DNA of 64,000 bases from Sulfurimonas sp. HSL-1716 (GTDB taxonomy: Bacteria > Campylobacterota > Campylobacteria > Campylobacterales > Sulfurimonadaceae): positions 1,426,001 to 1,490,000 of the forward strand of contig NZ_CP147918.1 in the NCBI RefSeq assembly GCF_039645975.1. Direction: 5' to 3'. The notes beneath the pieces are model-generated. The model was not told the DNA's origin. It was given only the letters and a program-made list of their open reading frames with translations, and searched no databases. This document shows, piece after piece, positions 18,487 through 34,521 of this stretch. Within the stretch, counting starts at the first letter, position 1, and every line of letters starts with the position of its first letter. Made by a program: the position numbers and the translations under genes.

Positions 18487-18512
18487 ACTGCAACACGAAC
18501 TTTCTCCTACAA

Positions 18513-18518
18513 TATAAT
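18513..18518 (+). promoter_or_regulatory. Probable -10 box of radA
   Basis: TATAAT lies 44 bases before the radA start, after the ftsY hairpin. The leader would be about 38 bases. Confidence 0.5.
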
Positions 18519-18562
18519 AAATTTCTCCCTTACTCATAAGGCTAGGCTAAAGGTTCATATTT

Positions 18563-19909
18563 ATGGCAAAGAAAAAAGTTCTTTACGAATGTCAACACTG
18601 CGGACTGACGACTCCAAAATGGATGGGAAAATGTACAAATTGCGGTGCGTGGGACTCTTTTGTCGAACTCGATGAAAAAGAGCAGGAGATCGTAAAATCC
18701 CTCTCTTCTTCGAGCAATGCAAAGACAAAAGCCGTATCTATGCCCGATATCACGGAAGTAGATATCCCGAGATTTTCATCGCTAGATTATGAGCTCGATA
18801 CCGTTCTTGGAGGAGGCGTCGTTCCCGGTTCGCTTACGCTCATCGGAGGAAGCCCGGGAGTGGGAAAATCGACTCTGCTTTTAAAGATCGGTTCAAATAT
18901 AGCTTCGACCGGCAAAAACGTCCTGTACGTCACAGGAGAGGAATCCGAGAGCCAGGTAAAACTTCGCGCCAACAGGCTGGGATCGAATGAAAAGAACCTT
19001 TACCTTTTAAGCGAAATAAGGCTGGAACAGGTCTTAGTAGAGCTTCATCACAAAGAGTACGAGTTCATCATCATCGACTCCATCCAGACACTCTACTCCG
19101 AAGCGATTACGTCTGCACCCGGCTCCGTCACGCAGGTCAGACAGATAACGTTCGAGCTGATGCGCCTTGCAAAAGAGAAAAACATCGCTATCTTCATTAT
19201 CGGACATATAACCAAAGAGGGCTCTATCGCAGGACCGAGAGTTTTGGAGCATATGGTGGATACAGTATTATATTTTGAGGGCGATTCATCACAGGAACTG
19301 CGGATACTCAGAGGATTTAAAAACCGATTCGGACCGACCAGCGAGATAGGCGTATTTGAGATGAGAAACGAAGGCTTATTGAGCGCAAAAGATATCTCCT
19401 CGAGATTTTTCAACCGCGCCACCTCCCAGCCGGGTTCGGCGTTAACGGTCGTTATGGAGGGTTCCCGTCCGATAATCCTCGAAGTCCAGGCATTGGTATC
19501 CGAATCGCACACATCCAATCCCAAACGTCAGGCTACTGGCTTTGACAACAACAGGCTCAATATGCTTCTTGCACTTTTAGAAAGAAAGCTTGAGATCCCG
19601 CTGAACGGCTACGACGTATTCATCAACATCACCGGCGGTATCAAGATAACCGAAACCGCGGCGGATCTGGCCATACTCGCGGCAATCATCAGCAGTTTTC
19701 GAGACAGAGCGATATCCAAAGAGACGGTTTTCATCGGAGAGGTTTCGCTTGTAGGCGACGTGAGGGAAGTTTTTCAACTCGACTCAAGACTCAAAGAGGC
19801 AAAAATGCAAAATATCTCAAAAGCGCTGATAGCAAAAAAGACATTGGAAAAATCTACCATAAAGACCTACATAGTGGACGAAGTCACAAAACTTCTGGAA
19901 TGGTTTTGA
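18563..19909 (+). CDS. radA: DNA repair protein RadA
   Basis: A RecA-related ATPase that promotes branch migration in recombination. The 448-residue protein has the N-terminal C4 zinc finger CQHCGLTTPKWMGKCTNCGAW (10-30), Walker A GGSPGVGKSTLLLK near 94, the RadA-specific KNRFG motif near 250, and a C-terminal Lon-protease-like domain (about 290-448) beginning around GSALTVVMEGSRP. The length is normal. The order ftsY-radA matches Campylobacter as I recall it. Confidence 0.97.
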   Translation: MAKKKVLYECQHCGLTTPKWMGKCTNCGAWDSFVELDEKEQEIVKSLSSSSNAKTKAVSMPDITEVDIPRFSSLDYELDTVLGGGVVPGSLTLIGGSPGVGKSTLLLKIGSNIASTGKNVLYVTGEESESQVKLRANRLGSNEKNLYLLSEIRLEQVLVELHHKEYEFIIIDSIQTLYSEAITSAPGSVTQVRQITFELMRLAKEKNIAIFIIGHITKEGSIAGPRVLEHMVDTVLYFEGDSSQELRILRGFKNRFGPTSEIGVFEMRNEGLLSAKDISSRFFNRATSQPGSALTVVMEGSRPIILEVQALVSESHTSNPKRQATGFDNNRLNMLLALLERKLEIPLNGYDVFINITGGIKITETAADLAILAAIISSFRDRAISKETVFIGEVSLVGDVREVFQLDSRLKEAKMQNISKALIAKKTLEKSTIKTYIVDEVTKLLEWF

Positions 19910-19928
19910 TTTGTTTAAAAACTTTTTG

Positions 19929-19934
19929 TATAAT
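19929..19934 (+). promoter_or_regulatory. Probable -10 box ahead of the unknown 85-residue gene
   Basis: TATAAT 33 bases before the ATG at 19967, with AAGGAA as ribosome site. It probably drives this gene and the carbonic anhydrase gene 18 bases downstream. Confidence 0.5.
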
Positions 19935-19966
19935 GTTTTAATTATCACTCAAGGAACATAAAAAAT

Positions 19967-20224
19967 ATGATAACAGCAGAACATAAAAGTGAAGAGCGCT
20001 ACGCAAAACTTTCAATAGTTTTTGATACGAAAGAGGAAGAAGAGAAGGTTTGTTCGGTCGTAGACGACATCGTAAGCAAAAACTCGATCAAACCGGGAAT
20101 ATATACCTGCGAACTTCCAAACAACAAAAAAGTATTGGTCGTTGAGTATCATGACGATTACGACCGCTCATCCGAATCAATTTTTAATAACATGATGAAA
20201 AATCTGGGAATATCACACTGCTAA
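19967..20224 (+). CDS. Unknown small protein upstream of carbonic anhydrase
   Basis: An 85-residue soluble protein that I do not recognise. It is acidic, with a KEEEEKVCSVVDDIVSKN helix in the middle, CELPNNKKVLVVEYHDDYD as likely strands, and two cysteines plus a C-terminal HC. A good promoter and an AAGGAA ribosome site support it as a real gene. It is followed by the carbonic anhydrase gene and is likely cotranscribed with it. Confidence 0.7.
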   Translation: MITAEHKSEERYAKLSIVFDTKEEEEKVCSVVDDIVSKNSIKPGIYTCELPNNKKVLVVEYHDDYDRSSESIFNNMMKNLGISHC

Positions 20225-20242
20225 TATTTAAAGGATATTATT

Positions 20243-20902
20243 TTGGATTTAAAAAAATTTGCTGAAGGAAATGAGCTTTTTCAAAAAGCTTATTTCAAAA
20301 AGAACGAACAGGCTCTTTTAGAACTTGCTCAAAACGGTCAAAATCCGAAAGCTCTTTTTATCGGCTGTTCCGATTCCAGAGTCATACCGGATTTAATGAT
20401 ACAGTCAAATCCCGGCGATCTTTTTGTCATAAGAAACGTAGGAAATTTTGTTCCTCCTTATAAACCAGACGAAGATTATCATGCAACCGCATCGGGGATA
20501 GAATACGCTGTAAGCGTTCTTAACGTGAGCGAGATCATCATATGCGGTCACTCCCATTGCGGTGCGATCAATCATCTGTTTCAAAACATCGAGGACCCTT
20601 CGCTCACGCATACGAAAAAATGGCTTGATCTCGGTGAAAAAGCAAAATCTATGGCTCTTTTAAGTCTAGGCAGAAATGCCGACCGCGAAGAGCTGCTGCG
20701 CGTGACGGAAAGACTCTCCGTAATAACACAGATCGAAAATCTTTTGACGTATCCGACGGTCAAAAAGAGAGTAGCCGAAGAGAATCTGCATATTTACGGC
20801 TGGTATTACGACATACAAACAGGCGGAATACATTACTATGATCCCGATACCTACGAGTTCGAACCTCTAAACTCATTGGTAAAAAAAACCGATATGGTAT
20901 AA
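20243..20902 (+). CDS. Beta-class carbonic anhydrase
   Basis: Interconverts CO2 and bicarbonate. The 219-residue protein shows the zinc-site motifs FIGCSDSRVIPDL (near 45) and CGHSHCGAINHL (near 102), with the conserved GDLFVIRNVGNFVPP between. It starts with TTG, placed nine bases after AAAGGATA; no ATG is better placed. No signal peptide is visible, so it should be cytoplasmic, as expected for supplying bicarbonate to carboxylases. Confidence 0.95.
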   Translation: MDLKKFAEGNELFQKAYFKKNEQALLELAQNGQNPKALFIGCSDSRVIPDLMIQSNPGDLFVIRNVGNFVPPYKPDEDYHATASGIEYAVSVLNVSEIIICGHSHCGAINHLFQNIEDPSLTHTKKWLDLGEKAKSMALLSLGRNADREELLRVTERLSVITQIENLLTYPTVKKRVAEENLHIYGWYYDIQTGGIHYYDPDTYEFEPLNSLVKKTDMV

Positions 20903-20903
20903 T
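20898..20903 (+). promoter_or_regulatory. Probable -10 box of fliL
   Basis: GTATAAT overlaps the carbonic anhydrase stop, about 40 bases before the fliL start. No sigma-28 or sigma-54 consensus is evident to me in the gap. Confidence 0.35.
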
Positions 20904-20942
20904 TATCGAAAAATACAAACTCACAACATCTAAGGACGGATA

Positions 20943-21497
20943 ATGGCGGAAGAGAAAAAAACAGAAGAAACCGAAGCAGGGGCTGAAACCAAAAAATCAA
21001 ATTCATTAATGCTGATTGTTATCATCATAGTTTTGGTGGTCGTTATTTTAATTGGTGCTATCATCGCCGTACTTATGATGGGAGGAGACAGCAGCTCGTC
21101 AAAGCAGGTGCAAAAGAACGTACAGCAGTCTGCAAGTTCTCAGCCGATGAAAAGGTCTCATGCCGAGCTTGACAACTCCAGAACATTGAACAAAATCGGT
21201 ATCTTGTATCCGTTGGACACTTTTACGGTGAATCTCTTAAGCGAGAACGGAAGCCGTTACCTCAAAGCTCAAATATCACTGGAGTTGAGCGGACAGGAAC
21301 TCGCTGCGGAACTCGACTCTAAAAAAGCGGTCATCAGAGACAGGATACTGCGCCTTCTCTCTTCAAAATCACTTGAAGAGGTCTCTACTCTAAAAGGTAA
21401 AGACAAACTGAGCGAACAGATGATGGACGTTTTAAACCCGATGCTTACCGACGGCAGCATAAACGGAATATATTTTACCGAATTCGTCATTCAATAG
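20943..21497 (+). CDS. fliL: Flagellar basal-body protein FliL
   Basis: A single-pass inner-membrane protein around the flagellar stators. The 184-residue protein has a short cytoplasmic head rich in Glu and Lys, a membrane helix (about 22-43) and a periplasmic domain with YPLDTFTVNLLSENGSRYLKAQISLEL, which is the FliL signature. It ends in GIYFTEFVIQ as usual. In Campylobacter jejuni fliL is, as I recall, next to acpS; here 7.5 kb of other genes lie between them. Confidence 0.93.
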   Translation: MAEEKKTEETEAGAETKKSNSLMLIVIIIVLVVVILIGAIIAVLMMGGDSSSSKQVQKNVQQSASSQPMKRSHAELDNSRTLNKIGILYPLDTFTVNLLSENGSRYLKAQISLELSGQELAAELDSKKAVIRDRILRLLSSKSLEEVSTLKGKDKLSEQMMDVLNPMLTDGSINGIYFTEFVIQ

Positions 21498-21508
21498 TTT
21501 AAGATATA

Positions 21509-21530
21509 GAAGCTCATAAATTTGGGCTTC
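21509..21530 (+). terminator. Weak hairpin after fliL
   Basis: GAAGCTC at 21509-21515 can pair with GGGCTTC at 21524-21530, with one G-T pair and an 8-base loop, 12 bases after the fliL stop. There is no T-run, so the call is tentative. The rest of the 195-base gap before the next gene is AT-rich with no clear further element. Confidence 0.3.
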
Positions 21531-21692
21531 AATTCTACCGTTTCTCTCAAAATATACCATTTCATTTAAAACTACTTTCAGTTTCAAACATTAAATTTGC
21601 TATATTTCAGCTAAAAGCTTTTCACTATTACGCATATATGTTACATTAAAGAATGCACTGCATACAAGCATTAAGTTTTGAAAGGAGATGTT

Positions 21693-22859
21693 TTGCATGA
21701 TGAAGAGTTAAATGACATAGATTGGAAAGAGTTAAACTGGTGGAACGAATTAAAGAACAACATTAATTCGATCGATAAATTAAAAAAATATATGAATTTT
21801 CGTGGAGACGAGGAGGAAAAACTGCGTGAAGTAGTTGCTAACCATCCTATGAATATTCCAAGATACTACTTAAGCCTCATCGATCAAGATAATCCCGACG
21901 ACCCCATCAAAAAATTAGCGTTTCCCAACAAAGAGGAGCTGACCGTTTCGGGAAGTATGGGAGAAACCACGCAAGACCCCTACGGCGACGACAAACATAA
22001 CAAGGGCAACGGAATTTTACATAAATACCCCTATTCTGCGCTTATAGTCGCAACAGACTACTGTTCAATGTACTGCAGACACTGTTTTAGAAAAGCGATA
22101 GTAGGTCTTCCAAACGACAAAACCGTCGAAAACTTTCAAAATGCACTAAAATACATAAAAGAGCATAAAGAGATTACCAACGTCATCATATCAGGCGGCG
22201 ACCCAATGCTCATTGACACACCAAAACTGAAAAAGATGCTTAACGGTCTAAAAGAGATCAAACATGTAAACTATGTAAGAATAGGAACAAGAACACCTGT
22301 GGTGTATCCTCTGCGTTTTTTTGACGATGAATTGATGGATTATCTCAAAGAGTTTAACAAAGTCAAAACACTCTATATTCCTACTCATTTTAACCATATC
22401 AATGAGATAACAGAAATCTCTAAAGAAGCTGTTCTGCGTATTAGAGAAGCAGGTATTACAGTTAATAATCAAGCAGTCTTTTTAAAAGGCGTGAACGACA
22501 GTGCGGAGGATATAGAGGAGTTGATGAACGGTCTGACCAGTATCGGTGTCAACCCCTATTATTTGTACCAATGTATGCCTGTCAGCCGCGTAAGAAACCA
22601 TTTTCAGGTTCCTTTATCCGAAGGGATCAATATAGTCGATGAAGCGAAGACAAGACTTGACGGATATGCGAAGAGATTTAAATTTATCATGGGGCACGAT
22701 ATAGGCAAGATAGAGATCATAGGTAAAGTAGACGACAAACTGATCTTAAAGCATATCCATTCCCGCCCCGAAAAACCCAAGGACGCAAGCAAGATAAGAG
22801 TTATGGAACTCACAAAAAATGCCGGCTGGCTAGATGATATGAAAGAGGTCACGATTTAA
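21693..22859 (+). CDS. KamA-family radical SAM protein (aminomutase-like)
   Basis: A 388-residue member of the lysine 2,3-aminomutase family. The [4Fe-4S]/SAM motif CSMYCRHC is at 124-131, and the N-terminal PRYYLSLIDQDNPDDPIKKL is close to true aminomutases. The cofactor lysine can be matched in HDIGKIE near 335-340. The two aspartates that bind the side-chain amino group in lysine 2,3-aminomutase are not conserved: YQCD reads YQCM (295) and VDAPGGGGK reads MGHDIGK. The substrate is thus probably not lysine. I set the start at TTG 21693, five bases after AGGAG. The nearby ATG at 21699 is out of frame. Confidence 0.85.
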   Translation: MHDEELNDIDWKELNWWNELKNNINSIDKLKKYMNFRGDEEEKLREVVANHPMNIPRYYLSLIDQDNPDDPIKKLAFPNKEELTVSGSMGETTQDPYGDDKHNKGNGILHKYPYSALIVATDYCSMYCRHCFRKAIVGLPNDKTVENFQNALKYIKEHKEITNVIISGGDPMLIDTPKLKKMLNGLKEIKHVNYVRIGTRTPVVYPLRFFDDELMDYLKEFNKVKTLYIPTHFNHINEITEISKEAVLRIREAGITVNNQAVFLKGVNDSAEDIEELMNGLTSIGVNPYYLYQCMPVSRVRNHFQVPLSEGINIVDEAKTRLDGYAKRFKFIMGHDIGKIEIIGKVDDKLILKHIHSRPEKPKDASKIRVMELTKNAGWLDDMKEVTI

Positions 22860-22876
22860 ATCATAGATACAGAGTA

Positions 22877-22938
22877 AACTGTGCTTTTAAAATTTTTCAC
22901 TCTTTTTTAGAGCCTTTATCTCTTACAATAGCACAGTT
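22877..22938. repeat. 8-bp inverted repeat between converging kamA-like and cytochrome genes
   Basis: AACTGTGC at 22877-22884 is repeated inverted at 22931-22938, 46 bases apart, in the gap between two converging genes. A long-loop terminator is possible; T-rich stretches lie inside the loop. Confidence 0.25.
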
Positions 22939-22963
22939 CGCATTTTATTTATCATCGCAAAGA

Positions 22964-24781
22964 TCACTCATCTGCAAACTCTTTTTCCACTTTTTTCACT
23001 TCCACTACAGGCGGACTCGGAAGCTGCGGGTATATTCTTTGAACAGCGTTGCTTACCCATTGCGGATATATCCTAAAGTTCAGTTTTACCGTCACTTTCA
23101 GCGGATATTGCAGCTTCGTTCCCACCTCATACGTCTCAATGCGTCTTTCTTTTGCAGGGATCGTCGTATCGCTTAAAAGCTTCGCGGCTTTCCAAAACAT
23201 CAGACCGACTGGTTTGTCGTTTTTGTCGCCGAATACTTTCATAAAGACCCTCGAGCCTTTTTCTATGCTGCCGTCTTTTGTCAGTTTTCCGCTTGAAAAC
23301 ACAGTCTTGTTGTTTTTGTCCTGTACGGTAACGTCTAACCAAAGCTCTCTAAAGTCGGCTACTCCCGTAGGCAGATTGTGTCCGGCTCCCACATTTTTGA
23401 CACCCACGAGTATTTTGCCGTCTTTGATATCTACGTCAAGTTTTGCCGATGTCCTTAACAGCTGTAAGGTCTGCTCTTCATGCGCTTTGTTTTTCAGTCC
23501 CACAAGAAAATGGTTCGAACCTGCGAAATAATGGACCTTTATATCGCTTTTTATCTCGCCTCCGTCGGTAGAAGCACCTCGCAGAGGTGAGAACTTGCCG
23601 TCTTTTAGGTTTGTCATGTGGCAATCGATACAGGTTTTGTTTTTTGTTTTGTCCTTCGGATCGTTATACGGCGATTTTTTCCATTGCTCATAGGTGGAGA
23701 CTATCTTAAACCCGGTTACGGGATGAAACTCGTCATGGCATGAAGCACAGAACTTGCTTTGTTTGTATACGTCGTTGGAATAGCTGCTTTTGTGTACGCC
23801 AGGTTTTGAGTTAATGAATTTCTGTCCCACCCATCGGCCGATATCCGATCTGCTCTCTTCTAGCATATATTTTTTTCGGTCTGTCAGATCCAGCGTATAC
23901 GAAGCGTTTCCTGTACTGTTTACATCTTCGATCCTATGGCATGCTATACACGACACTCCCTCTTCAAGCCTAAAGTTATCCTGATCGGCGAAATCCTCTT
24001 TTGAGGCTTGTGCGTTCTTTTCAAATATATCGTTGCTGAGAAAATTACCCTGCATCCCGTGCGTCGTTTTCTCATGTTCGGTTGTAAGCGCGCTGGGGTT
24101 ATGGCATCCCATACACCATTTTCTAAATCCCTGTCCCTGATCTTCTCCCGCAAGTGTCTCCATGACCATATAGTAAGGGTTGGAACCCGCTATATGCTTG
24201 TGATTGGAATCTGCCCACTCGTTAAAGATCTCGCTGTGGCACGACTTGCATTTTACGGAGTTGGTCCAGTCTTCGCTGTGGTATCTTTGGACATGATCGC
24301 CGAGCTTTATCTTGGAAAGTTTCTCCTCGGCGTATGACGATGCCGGATATGCAACGCTTATGAGCAGTATGAGGAGAGATATCTGCACTTTTAGATCTTT
24401 TACATGTTTGCGCATATGATAAAACAGCATTCCAAGCAGAACAAAAGAGCCGTAGAGATGAACATAAAAGGATGCGCTGCCTAAAATATCTCCGCCACGG
24501 TTACCGACTAAAAACAGATATGTCCCGCTGATGAGGATAAGCAAAAGAGCTCCTCCAAGCAGTGCCCCGTCCCTGTAATCCACTTTCTCGATAACGGCAT
24601 AATAATAAACGTGTCTTTTTATCAGCGGTATAAGAAAAAAGATCGTTACAAAGATGGAACCGAGGATGTGTACGGCTTGAGTCAGCGTAAAAAATTCCCA
24701 TTTTATATGGAGCTGGTCCAATTGCAAAATTCCCGTTATAAACATTAAAATTATAGATATCTTAACAATATATATTTTCAT
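22964..24781 (-). CDS. Membrane pentaheme cytochrome c with cytochrome b-like N-terminal domain
   Basis: A 605-residue electron-transfer protein. The first 150 residues form about five membrane helices. H38 and H57 flank the second and H108 and H122 the fourth, which could hold b-type hemes (inference). A periplasmic part follows with five CxxCH motifs at 178, 223, 278, 345 and 384, spaced as in cytochrome c554-like multiheme proteins, and a beta-rich C-terminal domain (about 410-605) with GAGHNLPTGV. It begins 12 bases after the peroxidase gene stop, with AGGAAC as ribosome site. It may carry electrons from quinol to the peroxidase. Other acceptors cannot be excluded. Confidence 0.85.
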   Translation of the reverse strand: MKIYIVKISIILMFITGILQLDQLHIKWEFFTLTQAVHILGSIFVTIFFLIPLIKRHVYYYAVIEKVDYRDGALLGGALLLILISGTYLFLVGNRGGDILGSASFYVHLYGSFVLLGMLFYHMRKHVKDLKVQISLLILLISVAYPASSYAEEKLSKIKLGDHVQRYHSEDWTNSVKCKSCHSEIFNEWADSNHKHIAGSNPYYMVMETLAGEDQGQGFRKWCMGCHNPSALTTEHEKTTHGMQGNFLSNDIFEKNAQASKEDFADQDNFRLEEGVSCIACHRIEDVNSTGNASYTLDLTDRKKYMLEESRSDIGRWVGQKFINSKPGVHKSSYSNDVYKQSKFCASCHDEFHPVTGFKIVSTYEQWKKSPYNDPKDKTKNKTCIDCHMTNLKDGKFSPLRGASTDGGEIKSDIKVHYFAGSNHFLVGLKNKAHEEQTLQLLRTSAKLDVDIKDGKILVGVKNVGAGHNLPTGVADFRELWLDVTVQDKNNKTVFSSGKLTKDGSIEKGSRVFMKVFGDKNDKPVGLMFWKAAKLLSDTTIPAKERRIETYEVGTKLQYPLKVTVKLNFRIYPQWVSNAVQRIYPQLPSPPVVEVKKVEKEFADE

Positions 24782-24793
24782 ATGTTCCTCTTT

Positions 24794-25987
24794 TCAATCT
24801 TTTTTCTTTTTGGTGTAATCGACTATATCCCCGTTAAGCGTTTTTAGAAACGCCACTATCTCGTCTATCTGTACACTGGTCAAAGGAAGTCCGACTTGAT
24901 GCTTTGCCATGGTCGCGACGGCTTCTCTGAGTTTTGGCACCGCTCCGTTATGAAAATAGGGAGAGGTTTTTGCCACATTTCTTAAAACAGGGACCCTGAA
25001 AAGGTGGTTGTTGTCTTTGCCCAGAAACCCGCCGTTGTTCTTAAATGGAAACTCGTCATCACTGTATTCTATGTGCGCGATCGTCTCGATATTAGGCCTG
25101 AAATAGGAGATAAGAGCGAACTTTCTCAACGGGAATCTCTGGATACTCTGCCCACCTATGCTCATCCCCGAGTGACAGCCCTTGCATCCGAAATTGATAA
25201 AATCGGCCAGTCCTCTTTTTGCTTCGGGGCTTATGGCAGTGTTGTCGCCGTCTAAAAACCTGTCGTAACTGCCTCTTGTTATAAGGGTCTTCACATACGC
25301 CGCTATGGCTTTTGTCGCATCTTTGAAGTTGGCATCTTCGTTAAAGACCCTTTTAAACTCTTCTCTGTAGAGGTTGTTTTCATTTAGCCTTACCTCCGCC
25401 TCGCTTGTTGATAGGTCCATCTTATAATTTAGATGTATAGAGTTGGCGGCTTCATCCTCTATGCTTTTAACTTCGGCGCTCCATGTGTAGAATTTTGCCA
25501 ACGCGGAGTTGAGAATGGTCTGGGTATTTAGCAGATGAGGATGCTTGCGTCCGCCCTCTCCCACAGAGAACGTAAACCTGTCCGTACCGCTTTGATCCTG
25601 CAGATGGCAGGCGGCACAATTCGTGGTCTTGTCATTTTTGGACGTAAGCGTCTTTAAAAGAGCGCCTTTGTTGGCTTCGTCTTTGTCAAAGGAGTGGCAG
25701 GTAGCACAGCTTATATCCCTGTTTTTAGAGAGGTTCGCGTCAAAGAACAGCTGTTTGCCCAGAGCTATTTTTTCAGGTGTCAAAGGATTACTCGGAGTGT
25801 CCATGAGCTTTTTGAGTTCTTCAAAAGAGCTCGGCGTCGGTTTCAAACCTTTTGACAAAGCAAGTTTGCGCAGTTCGTTGTCGGTGTAATGAGGCCACTC
25901 ACGTGTCGGCCAGATAAAAGGCAGTGATAATGCGATCAAGACAAGAACAGGAGGCGTAATAAGTATAATAAATAAATATTTCTTCAT
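24794..25987 (-). CDS. Cytochrome c peroxidase / MauG-family protein with three heme sites
   Basis: A 397-residue periplasmic heme protein tethered by an N-terminal hydrophobic helix (about 4-25). GKQLFFDANLSKNRDISCATCH (77-98) and the C-terminal GCKGCHSG (268-272) are the two standard hemes of the peroxidase family. An inserted stretch of about 30 residues adds a third motif, CAACH at 124-128. FRVPVLRNVAKTSPYFHNG near 330 is also typical. Members reduce hydrogen peroxide with electrons from cytochromes. A GGAG site precedes the ATG, and the gene leads an operon with the pentaheme gene. Confidence 0.87.
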   Translation of the reverse strand: MKKYLFIILITPPVLVLIALSLPFIWPTREWPHYTDNELRKLALSKGLKPTPSSFEELKKLMDTPSNPLTPEKIALGKQLFFDANLSKNRDISCATCHSFDKDEANKGALLKTLTSKNDKTTNCAACHLQDQSGTDRFTFSVGEGGRKHPHLLNTQTILNSALAKFYTWSAEVKSIEDEAANSIHLNYKMDLSTSEAEVRLNENNLYREEFKRVFNEDANFKDATKAIAAYVKTLITRGSYDRFLDGDNTAISPEAKRGLADFINFGCKGCHSGMSIGGQSIQRFPLRKFALISYFRPNIETIAHIEYSDDEFPFKNNGGFLGKDNNHLFRVPVLRNVAKTSPYFHNGAVPKLREAVATMAKHQVGLPLTSVQIDEIVAFLKTLNGDIVDYTKKKKD

Positions 25988-26055
25988 TTTTACTCCATAA
26001 ACGGATATTTAACGTTTTATCTCTCATTTTAACCGTATTTGATCCATTTCTTATT

Positions 26056-26138
26056 GAGTTTAGTCAAGAAGATAAGCTGATTTTATAGATAACTGCACTT
26101 GCGGGATCGATCTCGTTAAGACGGATAAAATGAAAAAA
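26056..26138 (+). repeat. Diverged left copy of the acpS promoter and 5' end
   Basis: Bases 26056-26102 match 28926-28972 at roughly 85%, and 26103-26122 (GGGATCGATCTCGTTAAGAC) is identical to acpS codons at 29013-29032, with similarity going on for about 16 bases. Compared with the right copy, about 40 bases including the -10 downstream part and the acpS ATG are deleted, and the -10 box is mutated. It is non-coding debris. Confidence 0.8.
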
Positions 26139-26185
26139 TAATAATTTTGGCTAATTGTATAAAAGTTTTTACAGCTGTTACTTAC

Positions 26186-26998
26186 TTATACACCAAAAGT
26201 TTCCTTTATGTGTCGCTCGAATTTTTCATTGCTCAACTCCTGTCTAAGAGGAACGAACGTTTCTGCTTCAGCGCCTACAGGCATAGAGATATCGGCGTTT
26301 TCGTTTTCAATGATATATTTAACCGCATCGGCTATGGGCTGAGAATTCGGGCCTTCATTGATAGCTTTTGCGACAATAGGAACAAAGTGGTCTACCAAAG
26401 TTTTATAAGGTGAAGTCTCACTTACTGTTCGCGCATTGGCTACAAGTCCTTTTTTGACAAAGTTTGTACCAAATAATCCCGATTGAATCGAATGGACACG
26501 GATATTAAACGGCAAGCTCTCAAAACGTAAAGAGTCTACGATGCCTTCGACTGCATATTTGCTGGCATTATAATGTGCTAAAAGCGGAAGCCCCATTTTG
26601 CCTAGAAACGAACTGATATTAATGATAACGCCGTTTTTTTTCTCTCTCATATACGGAAGCACTTCTCTTGTCATTTTAAGAAGTCCGAAAACGTTGACAT
26701 TGAACTGGTCAAACATCTCTTCGTCAGTACCCTCTTCAACTGTTGCCAGCAGACCGTATCCGGCATTATTTACCAATACGTCTATCTTTCCTTCTTGCTC
26801 TATGACGTACCTTACCGCATTTTTAATACTCTTGGTATTTGTAACATCGAGATAGATATTTTTAAGATTATGTTTATCGGATACAGTATCGAAAGTTCTG
26901 CTGCCTGCATAAACCATATAATTATTTTGCGCTAGAAACGCTGCTGTGAGTTTCCCCATACCTGAACTCGCCCCCGTGATCAGTACTACTTTTGCCAT
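26186..26998 (-). CDS. Short-chain dehydrogenase/reductase, copy 1
   Basis: An NAD(P)-dependent oxidoreductase of 270 residues. The cofactor loop VLITGASSGMGK is at 4-15, NNAGYG near 82 marks the central strand, and the active-site set is S (INISSFLGKMG), Y and K (YNASKYAVEG, near 145-155). The frame is open 32 codons further upstream, but the ATG at 26998 follows GAGGAG and fits the family start. The protein is clearly paralogous to the SDR encoded at 27980-28795. Substrate unknown. Confidence 0.9.
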   Translation of the reverse strand: MAKVVLITGASSGMGKLTAAFLAQNNYMVYAGSRTFDTVSDKHNLKNIYLDVTNTKSIKNAVRYVIEQEGKIDVLVNNAGYGLLATVEEGTDEEMFDQFNVNVFGLLKMTREVLPYMREKKNGVIINISSFLGKMGLPLLAHYNASKYAVEGIVDSLRFESLPFNIRVHSIQSGLFGTNFVKKGLVANARTVSETSPYKTLVDHFVPIVAKAINEGPNSQPIADAVKYIIENENADISMPVGAEAETFVPLRQELSNEKFERHIKETFGV

Positions 26999-27065
26999 AA
27001 TATTTCTCCTCAAATATTTTTGTAGCATAAGTATATTGGATTGTATTTTCCGAAACAACCCTTTT

Positions 27066-27980
27066 TTAGCACGAAAAGAATTTTGTTTTAGCACGAAAAG
27101 AATTTTGTTTTTTTAGTAGATCTTTAGGATAAACACCAAAATTCTTAAAAAAAAGTTTTGAAAAATGTCCTTGGTGTTTATATCCTACTTTATGTGCGAT
27201 CTCTCCGATAGAGTATATCTGCTCCATAAGCAGAAGATTGGCCATCTCCAGCCTTTGTTTTTGGATGTAGTTATAAATGGTAGTCTGATAAACTTTTTTA
27301 AAAACCATTTTAAGCTTCGACTCATTTGTCGCACATTTATGTGCCAGTTCCGATATGGTAGGCGGATTTGCAAGATCATGCAAAAGATGTGTTTTTGCTC
27401 TTTTTGCTATTGTTAGTTCATCCTCGCCGATAGAGGTATCAAATATATCAAGCTGTAAAAATCTATGTATCATAAGCTCCATGACATTGTGTTCACAACG
27501 GATACTGTTCATATTTTGATGCCGGGCCGTGATCTTATTGATGAGATATAAACTAAGCGCGTCTATGGTTTTTTTGTCCAAAGATATCAAAGAGATATCG
27601 TTTTGCAGTTTTTGATAGAGAAAATCTATCGGTTCTTTTTGTGTTGACAAAAGATAGCGCTTCAAGAAAAAATCTGCAATAAAAAGAATAAAGGCATCAC
27701 CCTCGGCTTTAATAGTCAAGTCTTGTCTCGTCGTACAAAAGATCTCGCTTGTGTTTGCATGGGAGATAAACTCTTTTTGAGACAGATGATCCGATATAGA
27801 GAATTTTCCCTCTTGAACTATGACCAAAATAATCATCCGATCGATATTTTGTATATTCAATTGAGTGAAAGCATGAATATCCAAAAAAACGATACCGTTT
27901 GAGATATCGACTCTGTTGAAAGATTTTTCTTTAGTTATTTTGTAGCTTCGGTCGGTGATGTTGAAGAAAAAACTTTCCAT
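27066..27980 (-). CDS. AraC-family transcription regulator
   Basis: A 304-residue DNA-binding protein. The N-terminal 190 residues are an unassigned ligand-sensing part, and the C-terminal part has two helix-turn-helix motifs: TISELAHKCATNESKLKMVF (near 205-225) and IGEIAHKVGYKHQGHFSKLFF (near 255-275), ending in the AraC-typical GVYPKDLL. Its ATG overlaps the stop of the upstream SDR gene by one base (TAATG), so the two are translationally coupled, and it probably controls the SDR genes. The last 15 residues are encoded by a 22-base tandem repeat. By eye it is AT-rich compared with nearby core genes. Confidence 0.9.
   Translation of the reverse strand: MESFFFNITDRSYKITKEKSFNRVDISNGIVFLDIHAFTQLNIQNIDRMIILVIVQEGKFSISDHLSQKEFISHANTSEIFCTTRQDLTIKAEGDAFILFIADFFLKRYLLSTQKEPIDFLYQKLQNDISLISLDKKTIDALSLYLINKITARHQNMNSIRCEHNVMELMIHRFLQLDIFDTSIGEDELTIAKRAKTHLLHDLANPPTISELAHKCATNESKLKMVFKKVYQTTIYNYIQKQRLEMANLLLMEQIYSIGEIAHKVGYKHQGHFSKLFFKNFGVYPKDLLKKQNSFRAKTKFFSC
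27068..27111. repeat. 22-bp tandem repeat at the 3' end of the araC-like gene
   Basis: Two exact copies, 27068-27089 and 27090-27111, each starting AGCACGAAAAGAATTTTG. Twenty-two is not a multiple of three, so the second copy moves the frame and replaces the original C terminus and stop of the regulator. Confidence 0.85.
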
Positions 27981-28795
27981 TATAGATTGTAATACCTTTG
28001 TACATGTCTTTCAAAATCTTCATCGCTCAGCTCTTTTCGCATAGGAATAAATTTTTTGGCTTTGTCGCCTATCGTCGCACGGGCAGAAAAGTTGTCATTA
28101 GTGATGATCTCCAATATCATTTTGGCAACTTCATCAGCATTGTTGCCGAAATTGATCTGATCTACGATGGTAGGAGCCAGATTGTCGACAAGCGCTGCAT
28201 AAGGCGAATTTTTATCAAAGGTTTTAGCATTTACGGCCAAGTTGTCTTTTGCAAAATCGGTATCGAAAAATCCGGGCAGGATAGAATGTACTCTGATGCC
28301 GAAATCTTTTAATTCATATCTCAAAGAGTCGGTTATGCCCTCCACGGCATATTTGCTTGCATTGTAAAATGTAAAAAGAGGAAGCCCGATCTTGCCCAAA
28401 AACGAACTGATATTTATTATGATGCCGTCCTGCTGATTTCTCATTTTTGGTATCACTGCTTTACAAACTCTAAGGATACCAAAAACATTGATATCGAACT
28501 GATCGAACATCTGCTTTTCCTGCACGTCTTCAACGGTTGAAACGAGACCGTATCCTGCATTGTTGATAAGAATATCGATTTGATCTATTTTAGAAACAGC
28601 ATCGGCGATGGACTGCATATCTGTTAGATCAAGTTTGACGGGATGAATATTTTCACTGATCAAGTCACTGATCTTTTCGGGTGTTCTTGTTCCGGCATAT
28701 ACGGTAAAACCGTTTTTTGCTAAAAAAAGCGCACTTGCTTTTCCCATTCCGGAACTACAACCGGTAATAAGAACTACTTTTCGGGGAGCTTGCAT
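27980..28795 (-). CDS. Short-chain dehydrogenase/reductase, copy 2
   Basis: A 271-residue NAD(P)-dependent oxidoreductase. The cofactor loop VVLITGCSSGMGKA lies at 6-19, NNAGYG near 87, and the active-site residues are in INISSFLGKIG and FYNASKYAVEG. It is paralogous to the SDR encoded at 26186-26998. I chose the ATG at 28795 because the upstream extension of the frame runs through promoter-like sequence. It is first in the leftward group SDR-AraC-SDR and diverges from acpS. Confidence 0.9.
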   Translation of the reverse strand: MQAPRKVVLITGCSSGMGKASALFLAKNGFTVYAGTRTPEKISDLISENIHPVKLDLTDMQSIADAVSKIDQIDILINNAGYGLVSTVEDVQEKQMFDQFDINVFGILRVCKAVIPKMRNQQDGIIINISSFLGKIGLPLFTFYNASKYAVEGITDSLRYELKDFGIRVHSILPGFFDTDFAKDNLAVNAKTFDKNSPYAALVDNLAPTIVDQINFGNNADEVAKMILEIITNDNFSARATIGDKAKKFIPMRKELSDEDFERHVQRYYNL

Positions 28796-28925
28796 GTATC
28801 GATCTTTTAAGTCTATATTTTTTATCAAATTCAGATGCAGAATGTGTTTTGTTAGAAGATGGTAACACTTTTTCAAGGCGGAAACATTGACTTTTGTCAA
28901 AATACGTTTTTAGATCGATCATTTT

Positions 28926-29047
28926 GAGTTTAATCAATAAGATAAGCCGATTTTCTATATAATTGCATTTGCAATAGAAAAATATTTGAAAAATTGGATT
29001 TTAAAGATGATAGGGATCGATCTCGTTAAGACTGACAGGATGAAAAA
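28926..29047 (+). repeat. Right copy of the repeated acpS promoter / 5' segment
   Basis: This is the intact version, holding the acpS -10 box and first codons. Its diverged direct repeat lies at 26056-26138. Together they bracket the SDR-AraC-SDR block. Confidence 0.8.
28958..28963 (+). promoter_or_regulatory. Probable -10 box of acpS
   Basis: TATAAT 49 bases before the acpS ATG. The left repeat copy has lost this box. Confidence 0.45.
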
Positions 29048-29357
29048 TATGATGGAAAAATTCGGAGAGAAAGCTCTTTTAAGATTTTTATCCCCGAAAG
29101 AGTCTCTTCTAGTCAAAAATCATAAAACTGCGGCGGGTTTTTGGGCCGCGAAAGAGGCTTGTTCAAAAGCTCTCGGGGTCGGGATAGGTTCGGAATGCGG
29201 CTTTTTCGATATAGTAATATCCAAAACGCAAAAAGGAGCTCCGCAGATCACTTTCAGCGAAAAAGTACAAAAAAATTTCAATATAAAAGACTCTTCTCTT
29301 TCGATCACGCATGACGGCGATTACGCCATAGCCGTCGTCGCCATAGAGAGGTTTTAG
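29007..29357 (+). CDS. acpS: Holo-[acyl-carrier-protein] synthase
   Basis: Attaches 4'-phosphopantetheine to acyl carrier protein. The 116-residue protein starts with [12 protein letters not shown], the family's standard start with the metal-binding aspartate D5, and contains RFLSPKES and [15 protein letters not shown] (near 45-60). It ends [16 protein letters not shown]. The frame reaches back to TTG 28986, but the ATG fits all relatives. The ribosome site is weak (AAAG). Confidence 0.95.
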
Positions 29358-29366
29358 CCGCTTTAA

Positions 29367-29567
29367 TCACCCTCCGCCTACAAAATCGAGCAGTTCGACC
29401 CTGTCTTTGTCTTTCAATCTGCAAGAGGCCCAGTTCTCCTGTTTGACAACCTCCATGTTAAGAGCTGCAGCCATGACCTTGTCCTGCAGGCCCAGTTCGT
29501 TTATCAGCTCTTGCATAGAGATCCCCTCTTTGACCTCTCTCATATTTCCGTTTACCGTTATGTTCAT
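29367..29567 (-). CDS. thiS: Sulfur carrier protein ThiS
   Basis: A 66-residue ubiquitin-like protein that carries sulfur as a C-terminal thiocarboxylate for the thiazole part of thiamine. It begins MNITVNGNMREV, has SMQELINELGL, and ends in the essential di-glycine (DFVGGG). I chose ATG 29567 for the normal ThiS length. It stands alone here, converging on acpS with a nine-base gap; no thiazole synthase gene is visible in the window. Confidence 0.9.
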   Translation of the reverse strand: MNITVNGNMREVKEGISMQELINELGLQDKVMAAALNMEVVKQENWASCRLKDKDRVELLDFVGGG

Positions 29568-29631
29568 TTTTACTCTTTTCATCTTTTTTATTCAAAAAGA
29601 ATATTACTATTTTTTTATTAATTTATTACGA

Positions 29632-29637
29632 TATAAT
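29632..29637 (+). promoter_or_regulatory. Probable -10 box of the helicase-C-like gene
   Basis: TATAAT 29 bases before the ATG at 29666, with TAAGGA as ribosome site. Confidence 0.5.
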
Positions 29638-29665
29638 TCCACTAATATACGACTTAAGGAACCAT

Positions 29666-30208
29666 ATGTCATCCTCTGCAATAAAGCGTCATAATCACCG
29701 AGTTCTGCCTTGTGATAAAGACCGCAAGATCGAGCTCATAAACTTCCTTATAGAAAAGAACAGCGACCTTGACATTGCGATCATAGCAAAAGAAACCATA
29801 GATGATTTTAAAGCTGTCTCATCAAACGAAAGAGTAAAGATCCTAGACGACAGCCGTTTGGATTCAAAGTACGATCTGATCATAAACTACGATCTTCCCA
29901 AAGATGCACAGCAGTATCTCAACCGCATCTCTTTAGCAAAGACCTACGCTTTCATCCTGCTTGATCCCGAAGAGCAGAAACTGCTCTACCCGATAGAAAC
30001 GCTTCTGGGACGCTCTCTTGTAGAAGAGGTCATCAAAAAGTTTGAGACGACACAAAGCCAAGAACGTAAAAAGGCAAAAGCGAAAAAAGAGAAAAAAGCA
30101 AAACGTTTTGAAAAAGAGCGTCAAAAAGAGAGAGACAAAGAAGAGAAAAAAGCTCAGTCCCAGCTTCCTCCAAAGCGTACCGTCAGAAAGATAGTGAAAA
30201 AAGACTGA
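29666..30208 (+). CDS. Stand-alone helicase C-terminal-like domain with lysine-rich tail
   Basis: A 180-residue protein that I do not know by name. Residues 8-130 can be aligned with the second RecA domain of DEAD-box RNA helicases: the linker IKRHNHRVLPCDKDRKIELI, then KYDLIINYDLPKDAQQYLNRI (motif V and the start of motif VI), then LLDPEEQKLLYPIETLLGRSL. Motif VI, normally HRIGRTGRAG, is reduced to NRISLAKT, so ATP hydrolysis is unlikely. The tail (131-180) is mostly Lys, Glu and Arg, as in RNA-binding helicase tails. No DEAD domain is encoded nearby. It could bind RNA or ribosomes; function unknown. Confidence 0.7.
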   Translation: MSSSAIKRHNHRVLPCDKDRKIELINFLIEKNSDLDIAIIAKETIDDFKAVSSNERVKILDDSRLDSKYDLIINYDLPKDAQQYLNRISLAKTYAFILLDPEEQKLLYPIETLLGRSLVEEVIKKFETTQSQERKKAKAKKEKKAKRFEKERQKERDKEEKKAQSQLPPKRTVRKIVKKD

Positions 30209-30210
30209 CG

Positions 30211-31170
30211 CTACTTTTTCACCTCGTTTAGAGGCGAAGTGCTGAGATAGGGAACTTTTCCCGAAGGAACAAACTTCGATGCTGCTTCAAGATGCAGCTC
30301 CTGGTCGTCAAAAAAGATATGAGGCTTAAACGCCTTGAGTATCTTCGATTTTTCAAGCCCTCCCAAAAAAAACACTTCATCGACATACACACCCCACTGC
30401 CGGAGCGTCTTTATGACTCTGAGCTCCGCAGGTGCGTTTCTTGCCGTCACTATCGCTATTCTTACCGGAGAGAACTCCGTACTAAAAGGCAGCCTCTCCT
30501 GCAGCCTTGCGAGTTTTTTAAGCAGCGCCGCATAAGGCCCTTCTGCCATCGGGACATCTTGATTCGTATCCTCGTTTTTATGAAAGCCGCTGAGCCCTTC
30601 GGCTTTATATACGATCTCGCTGCTGTCGTCGAACAAGACGGCATCCCCGTCAAACGCTATACGCACCTGTCCTTCTGCAATACGACTCAAATCTTCGGGC
30701 GGATTTTTAACAATAGCCGCCGCACATGTAAAGCCGTCTATCACTTTTTGCGCGTCATCTATGTTCGTCGTCAAGAACAGATCGACATCGTACGCTTCAA
30801 GATAATCCACAACGGATTCCCCGCCGGTAAAAGCGTGTCTTGAAATATTAAGCTTCGTTCTTCTGATGTTGTTAAAGACCTGTATACCCGTTTCGGGACT
30901 GTTTCTGGACATGACAACCACTTCGATGAGAGGCGATTCTCCCTTCGGCTGATATCTGTTTAGCTCCAAGAGGGCCTTGACAAGAGGCATCCCCGTACCG
31001 TCTTTTAAAGGTTCATTCTCACGCTCGAGCATATATTTTCTATACTCGTTCATTGCCGTCTCTTTGTCCTCTTTGTATTTTGACTGAAAAACCGCATCCG
31101 CTTCACTGAGATCAAACAAAGCCGTCGCCGAAATGCCTACGACAAGAGTATCGGAGAGGTCAAGTGCCAT
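30211..31170 (-). CDS. 5'-nucleotidase (cytosolic 5'-nucleotidase 1 family)
   Basis: Dephosphorylates nucleoside monophosphates. The 319-residue protein matches the bacterial relatives of mammalian cytosolic 5'-nucleotidase 1: VGISATALFDLSEADAVF at 11-28, VVMSRNSPETGIQVFNNI near 85, RIAFDGDAVLFDDSSE near 170 as the acidic metal site, and VTARNAPAELRVIKTL near 245. It is probably cytoplasmic. It starts ten bases after the MidA-like gene and closes the leftward group. Confidence 0.87.
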   Translation of the reverse strand: MALDLSDTLVVGISATALFDLSEADAVFQSKYKEDKETAMNEYRKYMLERENEPLKDGTGMPLVKALLELNRYQPKGESPLIEVVVMSRNSPETGIQVFNNIRRTKLNISRHAFTGGESVVDYLEAYDVDLFLTTNIDDAQKVIDGFTCAAAIVKNPPEDLSRIAEGQVRIAFDGDAVLFDDSSEIVYKAEGLSGFHKNEDTNQDVPMAEGPYAALLKKLARLQERLPFSTEFSPVRIAIVTARNAPAELRVIKTLRQWGVYVDEVFFLGGLEKSKILKAFKPHIFFDDQELHLEAASKFVPSGKVPYLSTSPLNEVKK

Positions 31171-31180
31171 AGTGTTCCTT

Positions 31181-32185
31181 TTAGGATTTTCTTATCCGTA
31201 TCATCTTAAATCTCTCGCCTAAGAGATTTGGCATGATGAGCATTTTAACTTTTTGAAGCTCCTGCTCGTATATCTTCTCGTCCACGTTGATGCGAAGCAT
31301 CTCCAAAAGCTCCAATATACCCATATCCACCAAAGCCGTCATTTGGGCTTTTAGCGCCACAAACTCGCATCCTGCTTCGACAAAAGCGTCTTTTACATGT
31401 TCAAACGTCACGTCATACGTGATGTCGGAGTTTTTAAACAGTTCTTTAATATCTATCTTCTCGTCAAAGAAAGGAAACACTTCGTGATCTTTGTAGATTC
31501 TAAGCGAAAAATCGGGGCGGGCTTTCATCTCGCCGTAATCAAAACTGACAAACTCAAATTTTTTACATGAGCCGTACATCTCTTTTGCAAACTCCTCGTA
31601 TCCCACGGCTATCTCACCTTTGTCTTTATGGTACTTCGCAGCTTTTTGCAGGATCTTTTCATCGACAGTATCAAACTCCACCTTGCCGTTGGTGACAGAA
31701 GCGATCTTACCGTCATATAAAAGCTCGCAGCCGAATGCATCGAATATCTCGTTTGCAATAAAAAATGCGTTCTCGCATCTAAGCTCGCCAAGCGACTTAT
31801 AATGCGTCAAAGAGACCACATCGCCGAAAGACTCCTTAAAATATGCGCGCTGACGCTCTTGAAGCGCATCGAAACGCTCTATGATGACAAACTGCAGACT
31901 CTCCAGAAGTTCGGGATAAAGGGTATAAATAAACTCTACCACATCGGCCAAAAAATAGCCGTGATGCGCGCCTATTTCGCAGATGACGGCATCACGCTGT
32001 AAAAAACCGTCCTCGATCAAAGAGAGGATATGTTTGGCGATCGTACCGCCGAAAAATTTCGAAGTGCTCACGGAGGTGTAAAAATCACCCTCTTTTCCTA
32101 TCTGTTTGTAGTTCGTGTAGTAGCCGTCTTTACCGTAGAGCCACTCGTTCATGTATTCGCTAAATCTCATCTTTAAACTTTTCAT
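31181..32185 (-). CDS. MidA/NDUFAF7-family SAM-dependent methyltransferase
   Basis: A 334-residue protein related to NDUFAF7, which methylates an arginine in mitochondrial complex I. KEGDFYTSVSTSKFFGGTIAKHI near 32-54 and the SAM loop VICEIGAHHGYFLADV near 67-82 are the family signatures, with FIIERFDALQERQ and NEIFDAFGCELLY further on. The bacterial target is unknown. The start may be ATG 32185 or 32170; both overlap the end of the TolC-like gene. Confidence 0.85.
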   Translation of the reverse strand: MKSLKMRFSEYMNEWLYGKDGYYTNYKQIGKEGDFYTSVSTSKFFGGTIAKHILSLIEDGFLQRDAVICEIGAHHGYFLADVVEFIYTLYPELLESLQFVIIERFDALQERQRAYFKESFGDVVSLTHYKSLGELRCENAFFIANEIFDAFGCELLYDGKIASVTNGKVEFDTVDEKILQKAAKYHKDKGEIAVGYEEFAKEMYGSCKKFEFVSFDYGEMKARPDFSLRIYKDHEVFPFFDEKIDIKELFKNSDITYDVTFEHVKDAFVEAGCEFVALKAQMTALVDMGILELLEMLRINVDEKIYEQELQKVKMLIMPNLLGERFKMIRIRKS

Positions 32186-33383
32186 ACAGACTCAGCAGTT
32201 CAAGCTGCTTGTCCATCTCATAAATTTTTGTGTCGAGCTTTTGGATCTCGACGGAGTTTTTCAGCGTGTCTACGTCATATTGCGTTTTATACCCCGCTTG
32301 AAAAAGCTGTGCCGTATCCTCCAAGAGTTTTTCATACAACTCTTTATTTTTTTTTGAAAGCTGTATCTTGTTCTCAAAGTTTTTTATGTTCTGCATTACC
32401 TGCTCGAAAAGCGCTTTGAGCTCTCTTTTTTTGTCTATGACCACGACTTGGGATTTGAGGTACTCCACTTTTGCGGATTCGACGTCTCTAAAGGTGTTTA
32501 TATCAAGAGGGATGGAAGCCTTGATGCCGTAATTGTAGTAATCCGTTTCACCTGAAGAGGTGATACCCGATCCTCCATACTGCTGGTTTTTTGTTTTGTC
32601 CCAGTTGTAGCCGGCCGTTATGCTGATCTTTGGAAGATATTTGGACACGGTCACGTTTTTGTTGTATCTGTCTCTTTCCTCTTGGCTTCTTATCTGATAA
32701 ATGTCTATATTGTTTTTTAAAAATTCGCTCTCGTTTAAGATTCTGAGTTTTGGAATCTCTGCCGTTTCATAATTCATATCGCTTATGCTTTTAAACTGTG
32801 ATATCAATTTTTGTTCGTTTGCTTCGATATCAAAAAGAGCCTGATTTGCTTCATTTGTCTGTATGATCGCACTGTCTAAAAAGCCAGAATCCAATTGCCC
32901 GTTTAGATACTCCTCTTTTTTCTGCTCCAGATTTATCTCGGCATTTTTTATCTGAAGTTTCTGCTTTTGCTTCTTGAACTCCGTCTGCTTTATCTGCATC
33001 AAAAGGGCGACGGTGTCTTTTATGAGTTTTCTTTTTGCGACGTCTATGGTATAGTCGGAGTATTTTCTTGAGGCTTGAGCGAATTTGATTCCGTAGTAGA
33101 TACCGCCGCTTTGAAAGATGGGTTGATCCATCACTATCGCGGCTTTTTGGGACTCCTGAGAGTTTTTGTACGGATCGCTTTTAGAGTAGGCGTAACTGAT
33201 GATGAGCGGTTGTATCCAGGAATCTCTCAGTTTTGAGCTGTCGGCTTCGACCTTTTTGTAATCGTAAGAGAACTCCTGCTTTTTGATATCGGAAAGATAG
33301 CTCTCAAGCTTTTGACCGCTTTGTTGTGCAAAAGCAGGATTAAAGACCGCTAACAGCAATATTAAGACGTTTAAAGCCCTCAT
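32160..33383 (-). CDS. TolC-family outer-membrane protein
   Basis: A 407-residue outer-membrane channel component. A signal peptide ends near AVFNPAFAQQ (about 20), and the rest is long helices with two internal repeats, as in TolC (about 90-190 and 280-400), separated by strand-rich parts. A periplasmic adaptor gene is read in the same direction three genes upstream. No inner-membrane pump is nearby. Its first 44 bases lie in the end of argD, yet a good GAGGAGAT site precedes the ATG. Confidence 0.85.
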   Translation of the reverse strand: MRALNVLILLLAVFNPAFAQQSGQKLESYLSDIKKQEFSYDYKKVEADSSKLRDSWIQPLIISYAYSKSDPYKNSQESQKAAIVMDQPIFQSGGIYYGIKFAQASRKYSDYTIDVAKRKLIKDTVALLMQIKQTEFKKQKQKLQIKNAEINLEQKKEEYLNGQLDSGFLDSAIIQTNEANQALFDIEANEQKLISQFKSISDMNYETAEIPKLRILNESEFLKNNIDIYQIRSQEERDRYNKNVTVSKYLPKISITAGYNWDKTKNQQYGGSGITSSGETDYYNYGIKASIPLDINTFRDVESAKVEYLKSQVVVIDKKRELKALFEQVMQNIKNFENKIQLSKKNKELYEKLLEDTAQLFQAGYKTQYDVDTLKNSVEIQKLDTKIYEMDKQLELLSLYEKFKDEI

Positions 33384-34521
33384 CGATCTCCTCTTTTGTA
33401 ATAGTCAGCGGCGGCAGCAGTCTCAGCGTATTTCTGCCCGCTTTTAAGACCATGACACCGTTTTCTCTTGCACTGTTTATGATTTTTGCAAGGGTATCGG
33501 CATCTTTGACACGAAGACCGCACATCATGCCAAGGCCGACTTTCTCCGTGAAAATATTTTTGTGAGCATTATAAAATTTCTCAAGTGCTTTATCGAAAAA
33601 GAGCATACTTATCTCCAGATTTCCGCTGCTCACGTACTCGTCAAGTATGTCCATGACCTCGCAGACCGCAGTCGTGCTCAAATAATTCCCGCCGAACGTC
33701 GAACCATGATCGCCTGCGCCGAAAATATCTTTTAATGTTGTCATCACGACGCCCACAGGCACTCCGCCGCCCACGCCTTTTGCCAGGCTCACGATATCGG
33801 GCTCTATCTCGTAAAGGTTTGACGCAAGAAATTTTCCTGTTCTGTAAACACCCGTCTGCACCTCATCGACGATAAGCAGTATATCTTTACTCTTTAAAAA
33901 TTTTGCAAGCGCCTGTACTTTCTCTTTATCCTGAGGCTGTACTCCGCCCTCTCCCTGCACCAATTCTATCATCACCGCAACCGTGTGGTCGTCGACAAGA
34001 GATTCTATCTCATCGATGTTTTTCGCGTACACGAAGCCGTCGGGGAACGGTCCGAAATAGTTGTGCATGCTTTCCTGCCCCGTTGCTTTGACGGTCGTGA
34101 TAGTACGTCCGTGAAACGAGTGATCTAAAGTTATTATCTTGTATTTTTTTACCTGACCGTCTTTTTCACCGTATTTGCGCGCTATCTTGATGGCACCCTC
34201 GTTGGCTTCGGCTCCGCTGTTTCCAAAGAAACATTTCATGTCATAACCGCTCGCTTTTACGAGTTTCTCCGCAGCACGTGCCTGAGGAGCTATGTAATAC
34301 AGGTTTGACATATGTACCACGTTTTTTATCTGGGCGCACAATGCGTTTGAAAGTCTTTCGTTTCCGTGCCCCACACTCACTACGGCGATGCCCGAAGTAA
34401 AATCTATATACTCTTTTCCGTTGACATCGAAAAGTCTCGCATTTTTACCGCTTACAAACTCTACGTCCGCTCTGGCGTATGTAGGCAAAACATATTTGTT
34501 ATCTAATTCTTTTGTTGTCAT
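33340..34521 (-). CDS. argD: Acetylornithine aminotransferase (class III PLP aminotransferase)
   Basis: Makes N-acetylornithine in arginine synthesis. The 393-residue protein has FGNSGAEANEGAIKIARKYG near 100 (phosphate-binding turn), VDEVQTGVYRTGKF near 220 and the cofactor lysine in VSLAKGVGGGVPVG near 250, followed by GDHGSTFGGNYLS. It may also serve as succinyldiaminopimelate aminotransferase, as ArgD does in other bacteria. A TATAAT box lies 39 bases upstream. Confidence 0.93.
   Translation of the reverse strand: MTTKELDNKYVLPTYARADVEFVSGKNARLFDVNGKEYIDFTSGIAVVSVGHGNERLSNALCAQIKNVVHMSNLYYIAPQARAAEKLVKASGYDMKCFFGNSGAEANEGAIKIARKYGEKDGQVKKYKIITLDHSFHGRTITTVKATGQESMHNYFGPFPDGFVYAKNIDEIESLVDDHTVAVMIELVQGEGGVQPQDKEKVQALAKFLKSKDILLIVDEVQTGVYRTGKFLASNLYEIEPDIVSLAKGVGGGVPVGVVMTTLKDIFGAGDHGSTFGGNYLSTTAVCEVMDILDEYVSSGNLEISMLFFDKALEKFYNAHKNIFTEKVGLGMMCGLRVKDADTLAKIINSARENGVMVLKAGRNTLRLLPPLTITKEEIDEGFKRLNIAVSGL

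Follow-up and report, generated by a model that had tools for sequence, protein, structure and literature searches.

The 64,000-nucleotide stretch of Sulfurimonas DNA analysed here (the window) carries a dead fragment of acpS, the holo-ACP synthase gene, in the middle of an operon of short-chain dehydrogenase (SDR), AraC regulator, di-haem peroxidase and cytochrome genes. Together with the acpS promoter region the fragment forms the left copy of a direct repeat, which we read, on balance and with modest assurance, as the scar left where the parts of a composite operon, assembled in two steps between fliL and acpS, were joined. The argument makes use of the following features, given in window coordinates.

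20943..21497, plus strand: fliL, which bounds the insertion site on the left (Pfam FliL 1.2e-25; NCBIfam FliL above cutoff)
21498..29006, no strand: 7.5-kb insert between fliL and acpS, not present in same-genus relatives
21678..22859, plus strand: KamA-family radical SAM protein, aminomutase-like (TIGR00238, 287 bits, above cutoff)
22964..24781, minus strand: cytc, multihaem cytochrome c of the left module (Pfam Cytochrome_C554)
24794..25987, minus strand: ccp, MauG/MbnH-like di-haem peroxidase of the left module (PF03150, 3e-38)
26054..26102, plus strand: left copy of the acpS promoter region (41/49 identical to 28924-28972)
26103..26137, plus strand: dead acpS 5' fragment, codons 3 to about 14, lacking the start codon and followed by stops (31/35 identical to 29013-29047)
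26186..26998, minus strand: SDRb, short-chain dehydrogenase of the right module (PF00106, 2.7e-45)
27064..27094, minus strand: probable AraC operator, a GTGCTAAAA-N13-GTGCTAAAA direct repeat with 22-bp spacing, conserved at the araC 3' end
27066..27980, minus strand: araC, AraC-family regulator of the right module (HTH_18, 1.5e-18)
27980..28798, minus strand: SDRa, short-chain dehydrogenase of the right module (PF00106, 8.6e-48)
28924..28972, plus strand: right copy of the acpS promoter region (alignment to the left copy)
29007..29357, plus strand: acpS, the sole functional holo-ACP synthase gene (TIGR00516 above cutoff)

In direct orientation, positions 26054-26137 match positions 28924-29047. 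The promoter parts align without a gap, and the acpS codon parts share an identical stretch of 20 bases, GGGATCGATCTCGTTAAGAC. Between these two parts 40 bases (28973-29012) are missing on the left, among them the acpS start codon (ATG, 29007-29009), and the acpS frame of the left copy runs for about 12 codons into TAA TAA. Where the right copy has the −10-like TATATAAT, the left copy has TAGATAAC. About 124 bp of shared sequence are thus found on either side of 26138-28923, and each copy lies upstream of a minus-strand gene, the left one of ccp (25987) and the right one of SDRa (28798). An earlier note on this DNA had reported the repeat with the 20 identical coding bases in both copies, the loss of about 40 bases with the start codon and the damaged −10 box on the left. 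These observations could be verified; the coordinates were about right, with the left edge at 26054, perhaps 26049, instead of 26056.

The region is AT-rich, and a chance likeness of such intergenic DNA might produce repeats of this kind. We consider this explanation negligible here, as the acpS codons stand in register and the whole repeat reaches a local alignment score of 93.5, whereas 2000 dinucleotide shuffles average 19.5 and never exceed 33.7, which rules out chance similarity. In the pairwise alignment that the earlier note had proposed, the promoter part by itself reaches 63.0, while 5000 shuffles give no score above 32.4, so that the similarity outside the 20-base match exceeds that of AT-rich promoter DNA. 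The repeat was thereby confirmed as genuine and the left acpS copy as dead. In the other 227 of 228 family genomes the promoter sequence of the repeat gave short chance-like matches only.

fliL and acpS were neighbours ancestrally, and the 7.5-kb insert now lies between them. In the same-genus genome G006 the homologue of 18000-21496 runs straight into the homologue of 29007-34500, with the acpS start overlapping the fliL stop (TAATG), and the junction is likewise closed in G007, G002 and G001 of the same genus. No more than 30 bp separate the two genes in 69 of the 83 family genomes counted, namely those with fliL and acpS on one contig and strand. From acpS onward the window is collinear with its relatives, and acpS has one match in the whole 2.26-Mb genome. 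The identity of the acpS segment to G006 and G003 is slightly low (0.73 and 0.71, compared to 0.79 between these two genomes), and a scan of the right flank for a recombination breakpoint gave a weak dip at acpS and nothing else. The earlier note had regarded the 2.9-kb block between the repeats as the inserted unit, and had suggested looking among close relatives for strains with one copy and no block. The empty site is instead the fliL|acpS junction, closed in same-genus relatives, and the insert measures 7.5 kb, including the kamA-family gene, ccp and cytc; the search of 228 family genomes for the promoter sequence did not reveal any strain that has a single copy and lacks the block.

Six genes make up the insert (kamA-like, cytc, ccp, SDRb, araC and SDRa), and no integrase, transposase, plasmid or IS signature was found among them. 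The KamA-family gene has a partial match (E 1e-60) in G097 only, among 120 family genomes searched, falls far short of the cutoff scores set for the named aminomutase equivalogs and is not linked to the operon described below at other loci. It would accordingly represent a separate acquisition within the insert.

Inserts of more than 400 bp, with sizes of 0.86-9.6 kb, occupy the fliL|acpS junction in 10 of the 83 family genomes: the window genome (21497/29007), G003, G026, G083, G097, G101, G111, G113, G127 and G131. The same-genus G003 carries a different insert of 4.3 kb at this junction. Judged from the open reading frames by eye, the cargo of the inserts is varied and mostly unrelated; it includes genes of sensor kinase and cytochrome-like type as well as a large membrane-protein pair and PAS-like proteins, among others. 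A fragment of acpS or fliL at the left end was sought in ten other fliL|acpS inserts and found in none, and a common insertion mechanism for all of them was rejected on these grounds.

A set of 36 relatives was searched for SDRa and araC, and the genome collection for araC. Beyond this genus, within the Campylobacterota, both recur in an operon of the form SDRa-araC-(SDRb)-ccp-(cytc), for which a literature search returned no description. The loci L125 and L101 contain all five genes in the order and orientation of the window, L118 contains four of them, and many further loci show SDRa-araC-(SDRb)-ccp; cytc follows ccp in L125, L101, L118, L109 and L110. SDRb and SDRa of the window are 69-81% and 59-74% identical, respectively, to those of relatives. 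Judged by this conserved arrangement, ccp and cytc, which lie left of the left-hand repeat copy, are operon partners of the SDR and araC genes, and the block between the repeats is not a self-contained unit with ancestral DNA on its left. Since ccp-cytc belong to the same conserved operon elsewhere, the acpS scar is internal to a composite operon. It lies between SDRb and ccp in a gap of 198 bp; at other loci with both genes this gap measures about 0-90 bp. SDRb-araC-SDRa have no close relative in seven same-genus genomes, which supports the earlier proposal that the duplicated acpS promoter and 5' end, dead in its left copy, is linked to foreign gene acquisition.

Two side observations concern the relatives. 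At L109 and L110 (same genus) and at L101 a neighbour gene MDFFKYIHAVGTG... was observed, beside which ccp-cytc stand without SDR-araC genes in G002 and G007; in G008 this gene flanks a full operon. This suggests that the MDFFKYIHAVGTG... neighbourhood is an older family location of the operon. In L125 (11027-12835) the cytc of Sulfurimonas BM502 shows up as two open frames (253 and 290 aa) and may be interrupted or frameshifted.

At the araC 3' end the GTGCTAAAA-N13-GTGCTAAAA motif is free of mismatches in the window, and 16 distinct relatives have it there with no more than one; the matches in control loci all have 3 mismatches. By its conservation it is the probable operator of an uncharacterised AraC regulator of the SDR and di-haem peroxidase genes, and it bears no relation to the acpS repeat. 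The position of the two repeat copies, each upstream of a minus-strand gene, could also mean that the repeat is itself a functional operator or promoter, for example an AraC site, which was duplicated to drive ccp and SDRa and carried the acpS codons along. By inspection, however, relatives lack the repeat upstream of SDRa and ccp, and the conserved operator is a different motif located elsewhere. The repeat as AraC operator is ruled out by this difference, and a regulatory origin of the duplication in general appears very improbable.

Gene ancestry and base composition both change at the acpS fragment. The clades tested were picked after the trees had been seen, and the p values are indicative. 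In the ccp tree the window groups with L125 (support 100/99), and a grouping with L112 is rejected (p-AU 1.8e-44); cytc, like ccp, groups with L125. In the AraC tree the window groups with L112 (99/97), and groupings with L125 (0.0025) or with L125, L118 and L101 (0.020) are rejected. For SDRa the support for L112 is only 82/81, and a position of the window inside the L125/L118/L101 clade is rejected (0.0066), as is a grouping of window and L125 for SDRb (0.020). With SDRa and AraC joined, window and L125 together are rejected both with L112 (9e-6) and without it (0.037), and with L112 left out the looser window/L125/L118/L101 grouping is not rejected (p 0.26). A common ancestry of all five operon genes in the window copy was not obtained, as the ccp tree conflicts with those of AraC and SDRa for these clades picked post hoc. 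GC3 amounts to 0.49 in cytc and 0.52 in ccp on one side of the fragment, and to 0.38 in SDRb, 0.36 in araC and 0.40 in SDRa on the other. The difference of 0.14 between ccp and SDRb is larger than the 0.02-0.10 of four control operons with both genes.

These changes bear on the possibility that the five-gene operon entered fliL|acpS as a whole and that a unit of SDRb-araC-SDRa, promoter and acpS 5' end was later duplicated in tandem, after which the first copy was largely lost, or that a short templated copy was made. Such a history would directly yield the gene order of the intact operon in L125 and L101, and it needs neither a second donor nor a lucky re-creation of that order. It leaves, however, the tree conflict and the GC3 step at the same junction unexplained, unless the operon was of mosaic origin in the donor and chance placed the scar at the seam (~1/4). 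We regard entry of the whole operon as conceivable but rather improbable. The tandem duplication considered in the earlier note likewise does not account for the change of gene trees and GC3 at the scar.

A further line of evidence comes from the remnant itself. In a comparison that covers 35 bases and four substitutions, the left coding remnant is as similar to the acpS genes of four same-genus genomes as the live acpS is (matches of remnant/live acpS: 27/27, 22/22, 25/25 and 25/25). The changes between remnant and live acpS include two synonymous changes and one Arg-to-Lys change. The remnant could thus represent a once-functional acpS allele, a reading that suits these data no less well than duplication followed by decay. 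The earlier note had assumed the latter; the copy is indeed dead and without ATG, but it is no more diverged from relatives than the live gene.

Decay of this kind would be expected if the recipient's acpS promoter and 5' end (~124 bp) had been duplicated locally, or by a Campbell-type single crossover, as the SDR-araC-SDR block entered a ccp-promoter-acpS locus, and the left copy had then decayed neutrally. The repeat geometry, with ~124 bp of shared sequence flanking 26138-28923, and the left copy with its altered −10 and missing start codon are in accordance with this. Neutral decay predicts otherwise than a remnant without excess divergence and with synonymous or conservative changes, few as the sites are, and the insert's genes carry no plasmid, integrase or IS signature; we consider this origin unlikely. 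The repeat also offers less opportunity for deletion of the block than the earlier note had foreseen. A crossover within the 20-base identity would fuse acpS to the copy without start codon, so that a usable acpS would be left only by crossovers in the diverged promoter half.

In the two-step history, which we prefer, the ccp-cytc module would have entered beside acpS first, with ccp and acpS then pointing away from a promoter region between them, and the kamA-family gene would have arrived next to acpS in a separate entry. Later, DNA with SDRb-araC-SDRa that ended in a related promoter-acpS sequence would have recombined at acpS: its right end would have paired with acpS by homology, and its left end would have been joined without homology, at 26137/26138. 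This would strand the recipient's acpS start beside ccp and place the incoming promoter-acpS sequence on the right-hand side; the same structure might result if a circular molecule entered by a single crossover. In a last step, the 40 bases including the ATG would be lost from the stranded copy. Both the order of the steps and the recombination route are what we infer from the present arrangement. As a consequence, araC and its operator would again lie upstream of ccp-cytc, and read-through from SDRb may restore regulated ccp-cytc expression. The two-step model must also re-create the operon order of the relatives. Neither an intermediate (ccp-promoter-acpS without the SDR block) nor a donor was found in the genomes searched, and as the promoter sequence was found in no other family genome, a donor sharing it is hypothetical.

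A wider and more doubtful idea is that fliL|acpS serves as a preferred landing site in the Sulfurimonadaceae, where unlinked modules are gathered and swapped among strains via the common acpS sequence. The regulated AraC operon of the window would then have been rebuilt from two separately inherited halves, with the acpS fragment as the record.

Operons are thought to be partly assembled by horizontal joining of separate pieces, and the joint is seldom visible. Here a gene fragment of an essential neighbour marks the joint, coinciding with the changes in ancestry and base composition. The locus also shows how acpS, severed from the flagellar operon, acquired different upstream DNA, and suggests that insertions recur at fliL|acpS. 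The acpS fragment is a genuine and informative trace of stepwise horizontal gene acquisition, the general kind of which is already known and fairly ordinary.

Some integrative elements target the end of a housekeeping gene for insertion and leave a fragment of that gene behind, as in the islands of the tRNA and guaA type. Similar to these, a gene-end direct repeat flanks acquired DNA in the window and the gene is intact on one side. In contrast, the window insert has no recombinase gene, the fragment consists of the 5' gene end and the promoter, and the ten other inserts at fliL|acpS lack an acpS fragment.

Both competent bacteria and E. coli are documented to integrate DNA by homology at one end together with illegitimate joining at the opposite end (PMC3240628). 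The scars of such homology-facilitated illegitimate recombination resemble the structure proposed here in the foreign segment beside a homologous gene, the homology expected on one side only, the putative non-homologous join on the opposite side and the recipient sequence left at the seam (PMC3240628). They are known from laboratory events, whereas the event considered here is deduced from an old natural locus with no known donor. With the Campylobacterota operon the window copy shares gene content, order, orientation and the operator with its 22-bp spacing, but it differs in the 198-bp SDRb-ccp gap with the acpS fragment, in the conflicting ancestry of its modules and in its location between fliL and acpS.
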